Of a DNA stretch of 64,000 bases, positions 2,429-52,280 are shown piece by piece. The position numbers were made by a program, and so were the translations under genes. The stretch lies in the IMG/VR virus record IMGVR_UViG_3300007760_000001, positions 1-64,000 of that record, one strand, 5' to 3'. The notes under the pieces were generated by a model. It was not told where the DNA came from, searched no databases, and saw only the letters and a program-made list of their open reading frames with translations. The number at the start of each line of letters is the position of its first letter. Within the stretch, counting starts at the first letter, position 1. This DNA comes from a virus.

Positions 2429-2681
2429 CGTCATCTCCTTGCCACTCGTCGTTTGTTTGCTCTCTTCCGTTGGGGTTATTCTTTATTGTTAGTCCACCCT
2501 GCCATTTAGACTGAAAGTATCCATCAAAGGCTTCCCATAGGAGGTTTTTGAGGCTTTCAGAGGAGGGGGCATCATGTGTTTCGCTATCCTCGAAGACCAA
2601 TTGGCGATCAGCGAGGTCATCGTCTTCATCAGGAAGGATCAATAACCATCCGTTTTGGACTCTTTCGATAATCACAGTCAT
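2406..2681 (-). CDS. Hypothetical acidic protein (91 aa)
   Basis: A small beta-rich, acidic protein. The ATG at 2681 overlaps the stop of the upstream gene in an ATGA and is preferred over an upstream in-frame GTG. Its 3' end overlaps the AbrB-like gene by about 23 bases. The last quarter is unusually rich in Asp. No family recognised. Confidence 0.65.
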   Translation of the reverse strand: MTVIIERVQNGWLLILPDEDDDLADRQLVFEDSETHDAPSSESLKNLLWEAFDGYFQSKWQGGLTIKNNPNGREQTNDEWQGDDDDILCSD

Positions 2682-3124
2682 GGCGTGTCCTGTTCGTGGC
2701 ACGATTCACATAGCGTTTTTATCCACGCTGTATTGCGAGCTTTGCCAAGGTTCCCACAGCGTTCACAGGTGTGGTCGGACATGGCTTCAGCCATACGGAC
2801 CATACCCTCGATGTAGTGGTCGCCGCCGTGGTAGTAGAAACGAAGCCCACCGAACTTCTCTTTGACCTGTGTGGCTTCTACTTGAGCGAGGGGAGCGTAG
2901 TTCTCGTCCTTCTCGTTGTACTTGCGGTTGTGCTCGTACTTACCCTCTGCGTTGTGCCAATCCAGATGGTGCTGGATGTTGGCGCATAGGGTATCAAGGA
3001 TGGAGTACCAGCCATCTCCACACTCCATGCCCCAACACATAGCGGTTTGGGTCATGGGCAGATTGACTTGACGGAAGATTCTCGGATGCGCTTTCAGCAG
3101 CTTGGTTTCGAGTTCAGCTTTCAT
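2678..3124 (-). CDS. Zinc-ribbon protein of the phage KEKFGGLRFY type (148 aa)
   Basis: Carries the phrases ECGDGWYSILDTLC and QVKEKFGGLRFYYHGG followed by a four-cysteine site (CERC...CESC). I know this combination from a widespread family of uncharacterised phage and prophage proteins. The four cysteines should bind one zinc. Start at 3124 is chosen for the GGGAGG nine bases upstream; an in-frame GTG at 3133 is too close to it. Function of the family is unknown. Confidence 0.75.
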   Translation of the reverse strand: MKAELETKLLKAHPRIFRQVNLPMTQTAMCWGMECGDGWYSILDTLCANIQHHLDWHNAEGKYEHNRKYNEKDENYAPLAQVEATQVKEKFGGLRFYYHGGDHYIEGMVRMAEAMSDHTCERCGNLGKARNTAWIKTLCESCHEQDTP

Positions 3125-43656: not shown

Positions 43657-43683
43657 GGGGGCCGATCTATATGGGGGTCGGTA
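43657..43683 (+). promoter_or_regulatory. GGGGGCC-14-TCGGTA element of the tRNA unit
   Basis: GGGGGCC, 14 bases, TCGGTA, then GACCAAG. The transcript would begin at or just before the first base of the permuted tRNA helix at 43686. Confidence 0.75.
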
Positions 43684-43685
43684 GA

Positions 43686-43785
43686 CCAAGTGTAAGCGAA
43701 AGGTCGTGGGTTCGAGTCCCATCCCGTCATAAGGCGGGTAGCTCAGTTACCGCTGTGCGGAGGGAGAGCGTTCACTTACACTTGG
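43686..43785 (+). tRNA. Apparent circularly permuted tRNA-Thr(UGU)
   Basis: The 3' half comes first: TGTAA (43691-43695), anticodon-stem strand GCGAA (43696-43700), variable loop AGGTC, T-arm GTGGG/TTCGAGT/CCCAT (43706-43722), acceptor CCCGTC (43723-43728). After four bases ATAA the 5' half follows: GGCGGG (43733-43738), TA, D-stem GCTC/GAGC, G, then TTCAC TT (43771-43777). Joined, the anticodon loop would read TT-TGT-AA. The acceptor has six pairs (one G-U). The two ends of the transcript pair over about 15 bases (one mismatch). The D-loop carries an extra CCGC/GCGG hairpin. CCA is not encoded. No normal-order tRNA fits this sequence. Confidence 0.55.
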
Positions 43786-43860
43786 GCCACTTAGCTCATC
43801 AGAGAGAGCACCTGTTTTGCAATCAGGAGGTGACGGGTTTGAGTCCCGTAGGGTCCACCA
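43784..43860 (+). tRNA. tRNA-Ala(UGC)
   Basis: Acceptor GGGCCAC against GGGTCC is partly mismatched at its base. D-stem GCTC/GAGC, anticodon stem CCTG/CAGG with loop TTTGCAA (anticodon TGC, Ala), five-base variable loop, T-arm ACGGG/TTTGAGT/CCCGT and an encoded CCA. The T-loop has T where C56 is usual, and the D-loop lacks the GG pair, so the core is unorthodox. It starts inside the last bases of the permuted tRNA helix. Confidence 0.8.
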
Positions 43861-43901
43861 ATCATTATCAGTGCGGTCACTCCGCCGCACACCTCCAACG
43901 G

Positions 43902-43946
43902 AAAAACCCTCTGCCCCCTATCTTCGGGTCAGGGGGTTTTTCTTTT
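43902..43946 (+). terminator. Terminator of the tRNA unit
   Basis: AAAAACCCTCTG pairs with CAGGGGGTTTTT around a loop containing CTTCGGG; T-rich sequence (TTTTTCTTTT) follows. The unit from 43684 to here holds only the two tRNAs. Confidence 0.85.
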
Positions 43947-48810: not shown

Positions 48811-49158
48811 TTGGAAAGGCGTATCAGCATAGCCCTAACGCTGCTGTTCGCTCTGAACGTCACAGATGCTTTACTTACAATTGTTTGGGTACGCCTTGGG
48901 TTAGCCAATGAAGCAAATCCTCTTATGGCTGTTTTGGTAACAGACCACACCGTACTTTTCGTATTGGCTAAAGTGTTCTTGGTGTTGGCCGGGTGCTTCC
49001 TTTTATGGCGTTTCCGAATACAACCTCTTGCACGACACCTACTGGCAGTCTGTGTGCTGGCTTATGCGCTTGTAGTAGCGATACACACCCATATGATCCT
49101 TCAACTGGATCAAGTCCCACTCCAAGAAATCCAACGCTGTATAGAAGCGGCCTACTGA
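48811..49158 (+). CDS. DUF5658-like membrane protein (115 aa)
   Basis: LTLLFALNVTDALLTIVWV, then GLANEANPLMAVLV, fits DUF5658, a small multi-helix membrane family. The likely start is TTG at 48811, one base after the previous stop; the frame is open earlier but that part overlaps the previous gene. About four membrane helices. Its stop overlaps the end of the convergent topoisomerase gene by seven bases. Confidence 0.65.
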   Translation: MERRISIALTLLFALNVTDALLTIVWVRLGLANEANPLMAVLVTDHTVLFVLAKVFLVLAGCFLLWRFRIQPLARHLLAVCVLAYALVVAIHTHMILQLDQVPLQEIQRCIEAAY

Positions 49159-52100
49159 ATAGTGGCCACGTCTTCGGGGGAGCACTCGACTTCATGGGGG
49201 TGCTCGGTTTGTGGGTGAGCAACAAAGGTAACGCCCATCTTCTCCACAAAACTTTGGAAGATGCTCATATGTTGGTCTTCCCAAACATGAACAACATCAA
49301 AGCCATGTTTGACATGGAGTTGGTGGATGACCTTCTTCTTATAGCTTGAAGTGTCGCCCCCTTTATTGAGGTACACCTCATCGAAGTTGAGTCCCGCACT
49401 CTTCAAGAGTTCTGGCACACGCCAACGGAACCTCCCGTCCATCCTACCCGTACAACAGATGGCCCAAACATTTGGGTTCCCTATGCTTCGTTTAGCTTCC
49501 GCTACGGTTTTACCATCCCACCATTCCTTACCTGGAGCGAGAGGAACACACGGAGGACTTAGAGATAATTGGTTTCCCCACCACCCCTTTTGATCCCACC
49601 ACGAAGGTTTATGTGGGGATCGAAACAACGTCCCATCGAAATCAAACAAGTGTAGTTCTTTTCGGCCACTGGCCCTTAGACGGCGGTTTACCACCTGTTC
49701 AACCATGCCGGGATCAAGAACCTCTCCTTGCCTCCTCGCCAGAAAACCCACCTGGCCTCTCAAAACCGGACCATTGATCTTTGTGTATCCTCGACCAAGT
49801 AATTTGTTGCTGTAGGCAGGGGAAACACCGTTCACCGCAACCGTAATATGGGCGACACCCTTGTCTTGTCTTTGAATCCCTCGTGGTTGCACAACAACCG
49901 CTTGCCCGTGCTCGTCTGCGCCGTACCCAACCACTTTGAGTGCAATACTGGCCCCGACAGGGAGATCCATGATTTCTTTATCGGTAGGCCCAAACTTGAT
50001 GGTCATGTGGTGCGCTTTCACAGTTGGGTGAAGCGGCCCCACATTCTTTGTCCACCATCGCAGCAGTGCTTGAGAGTCAGACAAGAACACACCTGAGTAC
50101 ACAGCCTGACCAGCAGTTCTGCTAACGGCGAAGTTTTCGTATTCCCCTTTGATTACTTTCTCGAACCATTCCTTGTGCTCTTTAGGTAGGGTCTTGGTGG
50201 CTCGCATAGAAGCGGCTTCGCAGAGGTGCTCTTCGGCATCGGAAGCTGCGTAAATGGACGGAAACTTGAGTTTGTTCTCCGACTTCTTAAACCAGCCGAA
50301 GAGCGTCATTCGTTCTACTGTGCCTATCTCTTTCTTTGTGGCGATATCTACAAGATGGGCGGCTCCCCCATTACTCCCGTACTCGCTAACCATGACCTCT
50401 TTATTGTTGACCTGCATAGGCAACACTTCGCCCACTTCGGGCAACTTGGTTTCCACCCTCTTTGTGCTCAAGTCGGAATGGTATTGCCGCCACCTTTGCC
50501 AAATCGCCTTATCGAGAAACTTGTTCTTATAGCGATGGGTTAGTTCGTGGATCAGGTTTTGAACAGCACTGACTTCGGAGATGCCTTTACCACTGACCCG
50601 AAAGTAAACGGCATCTTTGGAAGGCATGTACCAAGCAGCCCAATTTGGTCTGCCGATCTTTCCAACGATGTACACATCCCCATAAAGGGTACGAGCAAAC
50701 CTCGGCAACCCTGTTCCTCGCTTCGATTTTCGGACAGCCTTTTCAAGAATCTGAGAGATCCGTGCTCTTTCCGCTTCGTCAGCACCAACCGTGTCGTGAA
50801 CTGTGAATGGCCCAACTGTCCAAATGCCCCCACCTTCGCTGGATCTGTCTTTCCATTTGATACTATCAATCAGGAGGGGCCAACGCTTTTTGTTCGTCCG
50901 ATACCACTTGTCATAACCTTGCCTTGGTCCTTTCCCCCTGCCGTACCGCACGGAAAAAAGCCTCGCAAGCATCTCAACACCTTTAGCCCTCCTTGCGGGG
51001 ATCGCCTTCTTATCGATGACATGCTCAAGCCATTTCCGCCCGATTGCGTAAAACCTTTGCCACGCCATCCACAGTTCTGCCGTATTGCCCAACCCATGAG
51101 CTTCGTTGTAGTCGATGCGACTTTCAAACTCGTAGTAGGTCATCACAAGGGCCTCGGCCACCAGTGAAGGCGTAGCTTTTTTATCCCACTTCTCCATAAC
51201 GGTGCCGTCATGGATGTAGGAGTCCTCCATCTTAGGGACAAGGTACTGTGAGCGTAGCGTTGAGGACTCGTGGCCTACGACTTCTGCGGTCGCTTCAAGG
51301 GCTTTCGTGAACTCGGCTTTGAGGATTTCGTCTTTCTCTTTTCGGTCAGTGGGGAGGGTCTTGCCCTTCTTACGCTGTTCTTTGAGTTGCCTGACCATCT
51401 CATCGTTGGCTCGGAATCCACGAATGTCTTTAGCGGTGATGTCGTACTTCTTTAGGTACTTGTTCACATCCTCTGCTTTGACAATACAATCGTCGCCTTC
51501 ACACAGGACGGTATCTGTACCCGACTTGCCTTTGAGGGCTTTCTTCAACGCTGAAACTGTTGCGTGGTCCGCAACAGTCTTCTTTTGGTCTACGCCTGAC
51601 TTGCCTGTGTAAGTGAGGGTGGCTTTGCTGCCTGTGATTTTTACATGCTTGGCTTGAAGCGTGGTGACCCCGAAATGGCCTCGGTCTTTTACGGATTGGT
51701 CGTTGCCTACTCGCTCACAGGTTTCGTCCATCAGGGCGACTGCAAGGGCTGTCAAACGGACTTCGGGATCATCGGATTTGAGATCAGACTTGTACTGTTT
51801 CCGCAGGTCCAGGATGTTGCCTTTAAGTTTTTGAATCCGCTTCGCTTTTTCACGGTTGCGGTGGTCCACCTGTCCTTTGGAATACTCGTAGACGGTGGTC
51901 TTCCCAGACCCGTCAGCTTTATCCACCTGTTTCTTCTTCTTGAACTTGGCGGCTACTCGGCTGGCGGCTGCGTGAAACGTAGGCTGATAGTCAACTCTGG
52001 GCCATTTCACGAGGTTCAGGTCTTGATTGACCAACTCAAACTCATCTCCGACCTTGGGCTTAGGGTAAGACCAATACTGCTGTGCCATGAGTCCGGGGTG

Positions 52101-52280
52101 TCTCCCGATAGGCTCCAAGTCCTTCGGGTGGATACGCCTGATTTTGAAGACCACTTTATCAACGTAGTCGGGATCGGTGGGGTGTGTCTCGATCCTCAAA
52201 AGAGCAAGCTCGGAACCTTTCAAGGTCTTGAGGATCTGCCCCTTCCTGAAACCAGGGTTCGCATCGTATCGGGTGCTCAT
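49152..52280 (-). CDS. Topoisomerase IB-metalloprotease-2H-HAD fusion (1042 aa)
   Basis: Residues about 100-350 form a type IB topoisomerase: Arg of CERVGN (190), Lys of YTGKSG (227), Arg of IRGFRAN (287/290), His of VVGHESS (337) and Tyr of SQYLVP (346). Around 578-582 is a zinc protease motif LIHELTHRYK with a likely third ligand in EEHLCE (about 687). HHMTIKF (757-763) and HITVAVN (811-817) are the paired HxT motifs of 2H phosphoesterases. From 877, LHLFDFDGTLFRSP, CCTGRMDG and VWEDQ form a HAD domain like the Swiss-army-knife type. An RVAAKF tag lies near 108. So one chain joins DNA cleavage-rejoining, proteolysis and nucleic-acid end healing. All catalytic motifs look intact. Confidence 0.8.
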   Translation of the reverse strand: MSTRYDANPGFRKGQILKTLKGSELALLRIETHPTDPDYVDKVVFKIRRIHPKDLEPIGRHPGLMAQQYWSYPKPKVGDEFELVNQDLNLVKWPRVDYQPTFHAAASRVAAKFKKKKQVDKADGSGKTTVYEYSKGQVDHRNREKAKRIQKLKGNILDLRKQYKSDLKSDDPEVRLTALAVALMDETCERVGNDQSVKDRGHFGVTTLQAKHVKITGSKATLTYTGKSGVDQKKTVADHATVSALKKALKGKSGTDTVLCEGDDCIVKAEDVNKYLKKYDITAKDIRGFRANDEMVRQLKEQRKKGKTLPTDRKEKDEILKAEFTKALEATAEVVGHESSTLRSQYLVPKMEDSYIHDGTVMEKWDKKATPSLVAEALVMTYYEFESRIDYNEAHGLGNTAELWMAWQRFYAIGRKWLEHVIDKKAIPARRAKGVEMLARLFSVRYGRGKGPRQGYDKWYRTNKKRWPLLIDSIKWKDRSSEGGGIWTVGPFTVHDTVGADEAERARISQILEKAVRKSKRGTGLPRFARTLYGDVYIVGKIGRPNWAAWYMPSKDAVYFRVSGKGISEVSAVQNLIHELTHRYKNKFLDKAIWQRWRQYHSDLSTKRVETKLPEVGEVLPMQVNNKEVMVSEYGSNGGAAHLVDIATKKEIGTVERMTLFGWFKKSENKLKFPSIYAASDAEEHLCEAASMRATKTLPKEHKEWFEKVIKGEYENFAVSRTAGQAVYSGVFLSDSQALLRWWTKNVGPLHPTVKAHHMTIKFGPTDKEIMDLPVGASIALKVVGYGADEHGQAVVVQPRGIQRQDKGVAHITVAVNGVSPAYSNKLLGRGYTKINGPVLRGQVGFLARRQGEVLDPGMVEQVVNRRLRASGRKELHLFDFDGTLFRSPHKPSWWDQKGWWGNQLSLSPPCVPLAPGKEWWDGKTVAEAKRSIGNPNVWAICCTGRMDGRFRWRVPELLKSAGLNFDEVYLNKGGDTSSYKKKVIHQLHVKHGFDVVHVWEDQHMSIFQSFVEKMGVTFVAHPQTEHPHEVECSPEDVATIQ

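Follow-up and report, generated by a model that had tools for sequence, protein, structure and literature searches.

A permuted tRNA-like locus in a phage contig probably encodes a cut-down RNA of the YrlA lineage

We identified a locus in a phage contig at which the parts of a tRNA are encoded in permuted order, and we conclude that it very probably specifies a tRNA-mimic RNA of the YrlA (bacterial Y RNA) lineage. The first-pass annotation had interpreted the same arrangement as a circularly permuted tRNA-Thr(UGU) gene. The observation is confirmed; the interpretation is in part correct as regards shape but mistaken as to the kind of RNA, since the order of the arms is shared with a group of related RNAs, but the architecture of YrlA requires no splicing. 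The locus RNA is a cut-down variant of a known RNA family. Taken as a whole, our best explanation, a tRNA mimic of the YrlA lineage and no spliced tRNA gene, is one that we consider likely. The window analysed is the first 64 kb (64,000 nucleotides) of a linear virus record of 152,523 bp, which is possibly a fragment (IMG/VR record IMGVR_UViG_3300007760_000001). The record encodes a family A DNA polymerase, helicases and topoisomerase IB proteins, and has a weak match to a sheath initiator of contractile tails. One of its genes (49,152–52,280, minus strand) encodes a topoisomerase IB fused to a HAD domain (PF10307) of a type known in RNA repair proteins.

YrlA RNAs are 90–150 nt long, have ends that are paired in a long stem, carry D, T and acceptor arms, and are substrates of DusA and TruB (PMC8394870). 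The structure of YrlA (6CU1) superposes on tRNA via a circular permutation (PMC11472068). Both YrlA and Ro60 have already been described in phages (PMC7824862, PMC12282133, PMC7765460, PMC8190616).

Results

The arms of the predicted RNA, all on the plus strand, are arranged around a capped acceptor hairpin. A short segment, AGGTC (43,701–43,705), aligns with the variable region (positions 44–48) of tRNA, where GGTCG is the consensus in our alignment of phage YrlA RNAs. It is followed by the T-arm (43,706–43,722; stem GTGGG/CCCAT, loop TTCGAGT), which is supported by covariation across 51 sequences, and by the acceptor hairpin (43,723–43,738) of 6 bp, including one G-U pair, in which the 3' strand CCCGTC (43,723–43,728) is joined through the tetraloop ATAA (43,729–43,732) to the 5' strand GGCGGG (43,733–43,738). 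After two further bases, TA, the fold and the alignment place a D-arm (GCTC ... GAGC, 43,741–43,769), whose 21-nt loop holds an inserted hairpin of 11–13 nt (CCGC-TGT-GCGG, 43,750–43,760) 5' of the conserved GG. This insert is found in none of the 50 other aligned sequences. Thus, every part named in the first-pass annotation is present in the sequence, with the T-arm and acceptor 3' strand ahead of the acceptor 5' strand and D-arm, and with four bases between the acceptor strands. Its description of these arms as textbook does not hold for the D-arm, the loop hairpin of which it overlooked, and the acceptor has six rather than seven pairs. As had been stated, no normal-order reading exists: neither ARAGORN nor Rfam detects such a tRNA over either half. 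An encoded CCA is absent from the permuted locus.

The sequences flanking this module, CCAAGTGTAAGCGAA and TTCACTTACACTTGG, are complementary at 14 of 15 positions, with a single C-A mismatch, in agreement with the earlier claim that the transcript ends pair for about 15 bases. In the resulting closing (Y-type) stem, the 5' strand (CCAAGTGTAAG-C-GAA, 43,686–43,700) pairs with the 3' strand (TTC-A-CTTACACTTGG, 43,771–43,785), the last two bases of which are G1 and G2 of a downstream tRNA-Ala gene. The stem consists of an 11-bp helix and 3 further bp, and the pair probability in the predicted fold is ~1.0 over the 11 bp. The minimum free energy fold of positions 43,684–43,785 is the permuted cloverleaf, at −44.3 kcal/mol compared with −29.3 ± 3.1 for shuffled sequences (z = −4.77); none of the shuffles was equally good. 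The flank duplex was equalled at 18 of 8,154 placements of the same geometry in the genome and in 4 of 5,000 shuffles.

The first-pass annotation placed the locus under its own promoter. A consensus scan for sigma-70 promoters gave no match at the locus, but a recurring phage promoter-like motif ends where the RNA starts. This candidate promoter (43,657–43,689, plus strand) consists of box 1, GGGGGCCGAT (43,657–43,666), and box 2, TCGGTAGACCAA (43,678–43,689). We found the repeated motif, GGGGGGCTRATT-N11-TCGGTAGWCYAA, 16 times in the contig, always with the two boxes exactly 21 nt apart from start to start; nine sites are on the plus strand (18,508, 19,316, 24,230, 43,678, 43,979, 44,526, 44,876, 45,768 and 46,705) and seven on the minus strand (17,488, 18,072, 18,414, 40,916, 42,222, 42,794 and 43,524). 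The sites cluster at 17–19 kb and 40–47 kb. In total, the promoter-like motif was counted at 18 sites, as against 3 in a reversed-sequence control. Directly 3' of the permuted locus lies a tRNA-Ala(UGC) gene with an encoded CCA (43,784–43,860, plus strand; Rfam score 49.5 bits), the only ordinary tRNA that ARAGORN detects in the record. Its acceptor stem has an apparent bulged A if the gene is taken to start at the G needed for a G3-U70 identity pair. Further downstream, a long hairpin followed by a T-rich tail (43,900–43,946, plus strand; −29.9 kcal/mol, z = −3.57) is the probable terminator of a two-gene transcript; our consensus scan, with a loop limit of 8, missed it.

We propose that the RNA and tRNA-Ala are co-transcribed from the candidate phage promoter. 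If box 2 acts as a −10-like element, transcription would start near 43,688–43,691, and an RNase P cut freeing tRNA-Ala, at 43,783/43,784, would create the 3' end of the RNA. Based on the promoter-like motif at the 5' edge and the start of tRNA-Ala at the 3' edge, the predicted product is an RNA of ~96 nt which, in the predicted fold, would have a blunt closing helix of 9 bp.

The Rfam model for YrlA (RF02553) matches positions 43,683–43,791 over its full length (model positions 1–114), with a score of 41.2 bits (E = 6.4e-9). This is the only RF02553 match in the 152.5-kb contig, and it falls below the default cut-off, a gathering score of 69 bits. That cut-off is too strict for phages, since phage RNAs from records that also encode Ro60 miss it as well, scoring 48.4 (L102), 43.1 (L147), 40.7 (L167) and 40.0 bits (L114). 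Nonetheless, the score by itself is not decisive, because the same model gives 28.6–40.6 bits for junctions between ordinary tandem tRNAs. A covariance model restricted to the module (R1) was rejected as proof, as it gave 58.6 bits for the window RNA but 60 bits for tandem-tRNA junctions. What distinguishes the locus from tandem tRNAs is that its halves belong to no complete tRNA, whereas both halves do so in the tandem controls; that its flanks pair; and that TGTAAGCGAAAGGTC resembles TGTAAGCGAGAGGTC of the Ro60-associated relatives L088 and L147, being identical at 14 of 15 positions. The match to these relatives extends beyond the bases that are invariant in tRNA, in the shared stretch TGTAAGCGARAGGTC, and the spacing from TTCGANTCC to TAGCTCAG is 19 nt in the window, as in many relatives.

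A pattern scan of IMG/VR identified ~70 phage loci with the same module, in most of which the acceptor consists of 6 bp and a tetraloop. The first scan imposed no condition on loop sequence, and several of the acceptor loops that it recovered were of the GNRA type (GCAA, GAAA, GTAA); an exact scan for the form with an ATAA loop returned no further copy. In an alignment of 51 sequences, including that of the window, compensatory substitutions, with both partners altered, occur in each of the six acceptor pairs and in three pairs of the T-stem, and 99.3% of cells pair (98.4% for the acceptor pairs). The covariation score was 0.751, compared with 0.171 for shuffles and at most 0.165 for slid controls. 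The module also occurs in the phage isolates BONAISHI, CcrPW and Phabba, the genomes of which encode TROVE; in BONAISHI, the gene directly 3' of the RNA, annotated as encoding an "RNA binding protein", is the TROVE gene. A search of IMG/VR for relatives of the phage itself, using the polymerase and a neighbouring protein, found none. The register of the closing helix is unusual, and our searches gave no close relative of the RNA or of the phage by which to gauge its covariation; both points count against our reading.

Besides the D, T and acceptor arms, many of the phage RNAs retain further parts of a tRNA. We scored an anticodon arm as at least 4 of 5 pairs enclosing a 7-nt loop, and additionally required U33 in a strict form of the test. 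Just 5' of the variable region, 41 of the 71 phage RNAs tested have such an arm in tRNA register (for example, L088:7994, L147:449, L155:862, L144(-):10540, L181(-):2036 and L168(-):7397), and U33 is present in 39 of those 41 (39 of 71 RNAs), whereas both requirements are satisfied at 3.8% of random positions. The anticodon seen most often is UGU (11 of 39); UGG, GUU and others also occur. RNAs that have such an arm are therefore almost complete tRNAs whose chain is open between positions 26 and 27. ARAGORN recognised 59 of the 71 relatives as tRNAs after computational reversal of the permutation, but random anticodon arms passed at 58%; hence, we did not use this result and relied on the strict stem-plus-U33 test only. 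Retention of anticodon arms across the family points to a mimicry of tRNA by phage Y RNAs that goes beyond the three arms usually described.

The window RNA retains only the 3' half of a UGU arm, the partner strand now being located 3' of the D-arm. Hence, the anticodon that the first-pass annotation assigned to threonine is best read as a relic of the UGU arm of the relatives: it matches the 3' half of their UGU loop, but its position is set by an arbitrary cut within a continuous helix, and for this reason a charged tRNA-Thr is not supported. L088, L147 and L155 share with the window RNA the 6-bp acceptor with a tetraloop and the 19-nt spacing; unlike it, they have not lost the 5' strand of the anticodon arm, their stem is longer and bears the motif, and Ro60 is encoded in the same record.

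Using PF05731, we detected TROVE in 51 of 66 phage records that carry such RNAs, and a phage-specific profile detected more. A GTTACTTC-like stretch in the stem, a motif that we defined from the relatives rather than from published binding data, is present in 47 of the 51 TROVE records and absent from the window RNA. PF05731 is blind to divergent Ro60-like proteins encoded near or adjoining the YrlA-like RNAs of L023, L052, L095 and L157, which an iterated profile finds; when divergent Ro60 genes are added, the association between motif and Ro60 is weaker (p = 0.017). Profile searches also yielded candidates in L036, L161 and LR756508, of which the L161 match is partial and the other two may be other vWA proteins. 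Because PF05731 misses such divergent proteins, a claim that several of these phages form a Ro60-less class was weakened. In the 152.5-kb contig, we found no Ro60 gene with PF05731, with the iterated phage-Ro60 profile or with a third profile, that of alignment A2. The best match to a Ro60 profile in the phage's own genome (56,787–59,111; E = 0.18) was discounted, the product being a vWA protein with a lipoprotein-like start.

Discussion

In its order of arms (T, capped acceptor, D), paired ends, permuted relation to tRNA, length of ~100 nt and occurrence in phages, the window RNA resembles Salmonella YrlA (RF02553, 6CU1). It differs in that its short, uninterrupted closing helix lacks the motif of the Ro60-associated relatives, its D-loop carries a hairpin insert, it abuts tRNA-Ala, its score is below the cut-off and its contig has no detected Ro60 gene. 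We have not filed it as a full Y RNA, because the features associated with Ro60 are missing. A full Y RNA is nevertheless a serious minority possibility, in which Ro60 would come from the host or from a missing part of the phage, perhaps in a RYPER-like complex with PNPase. It would account for the homology to YrlA and for the presence of Ro60 genes in most phage records with such RNAs. Moreover, the contig is classed as linear and may be a fragment; the closest match to its DNA polymerase, at 56% identity, comes from a 485-kb phage, and given a possibly incomplete record, Ro60 could conceivably be encoded by the host or on unsequenced parts of the phage genome. Against this, the stem is short and without the motif, the promoter and tRNA-Ala appear to bound it and so leave no room for a longer one, and LR745208 lacks TROVE and contains just ordinary tRNAs in tandem.

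A true permuted tRNA-Thr(UGU) gene would require trimming and ligation of the paired ends within the anticodon loop, then opening of the ATAA loop by RNase P and RNase Z, and addition of CCA. Such genes, in which the 3' half is likewise encoded before the 5' half, exist in unicellular algae and in the archaeon Thermofilum pendens. The permuted halves at our locus do have matching acceptor strands, joining them gives a possible anticodon loop, TT-TGT-AA, and ARAGORN calls tRNA-Thr(tgt) once the D-loop hairpin is deleted. However, without that deletion the joined molecule is not accepted by ARAGORN, there is an A-C mismatch in the anticodon stem, and the junction shows neither the bulge-helix-bulge of the algal and archaeal genes nor any sign of a joined product; it is instead an uninterrupted helix, inside which any cut site is arbitrary. 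Profile searches of the contig found neither RtcB nor RNA_ligase (PF09511 is uninformative, as it was silent in the controls too). The relatives, many of which adjoin Ro60 genes, keep the acceptor capped with varied tetraloops, often GNRA. We regard a permuted tRNA gene as very improbable. We attach similarly little weight to functionless decay, in which the first of two tandem tRNAs would have lost its 5' half and the second its 3' half. Covariance models do see tandem-tRNA junctions as alike, but the T, acceptor and D helices are intact, G18-G19 and TTC are kept, an 11-bp flank complementarity is not expected from a deletion product, the 5' edge carries a phage promoter-like motif and the arrangement is conserved in many phages. 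That the locus is part of a permuted (two-piece) tmRNA is the least credible reading: such tmRNAs exist, one of them just upstream of a YrlA-like module in phage RcXuper, but there is no Rfam tmRNA match in the window, and the locus has the full 4-bp D-stem that tmRNA lacks.

Given a tRNA mimic of the YrlA lineage, we ask what it might do. The absence of the stem motif of Ro60-associated relatives, together with the failure to find a Ro60 gene in the contig, argues that the RNA acts without a phage Ro60, a view that we hold about as readily as its opposite. Its most likely role, which we propose with low confidence, would be to keep tRNA-binding enzymes occupied during infection as a stand-alone mimic of tRNA; the leading options are a decoy for nucleases that cut tRNA, at the anticodon or elsewhere, and a tether for host PNPase. 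YrlA has been suggested to inhibit an anticodon nuclease by competition, and the SOS-induced nuclease of Salmonella does not cleave YrlA itself (PMC7790460). A decoy role for the window RNA is a tentative suggestion. Equally tentatively, the phage may have pared a Ro60-binding Y RNA down to a free-standing, blunt-ended permuted tRNA mimic that is made together with a tRNA, trimmed by RNase P and able to work without Ro60, for example as a decoy against a host defence that cleaves tRNA. If the RNA is independent of Ro60, the tRNA-mimic function of Y RNAs is separable from their Ro60 function, and the locus offers a small system for the mimic alone.

With the locus read in this way, one seeming exception disappears from the rule that spliced permuted tRNAs are lacking in bacteria and phages. 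Our analysis also indicates that routine annotation, with ARAGORN and with Rfam at its cut-off, overlooks phage YrlA RNAs. Other structured RNAs were observed in phage sequences that carry YrlA-like RNAs. In Rhodobacter phage RcXuper (L190), a match to a permuted alphaproteobacterial tmRNA (2,528–3,061) is positioned just upstream of the YrlA-like module; Ro60 was not found in this 147.7-kb isolate genome. Two other phage contigs carry, in addition to a YrlA-like RNA, a ROOL RNA (L036:3148–3722) and a bacterial-type RNase P RNA (L070:3063–3440, minus strand), respectively.
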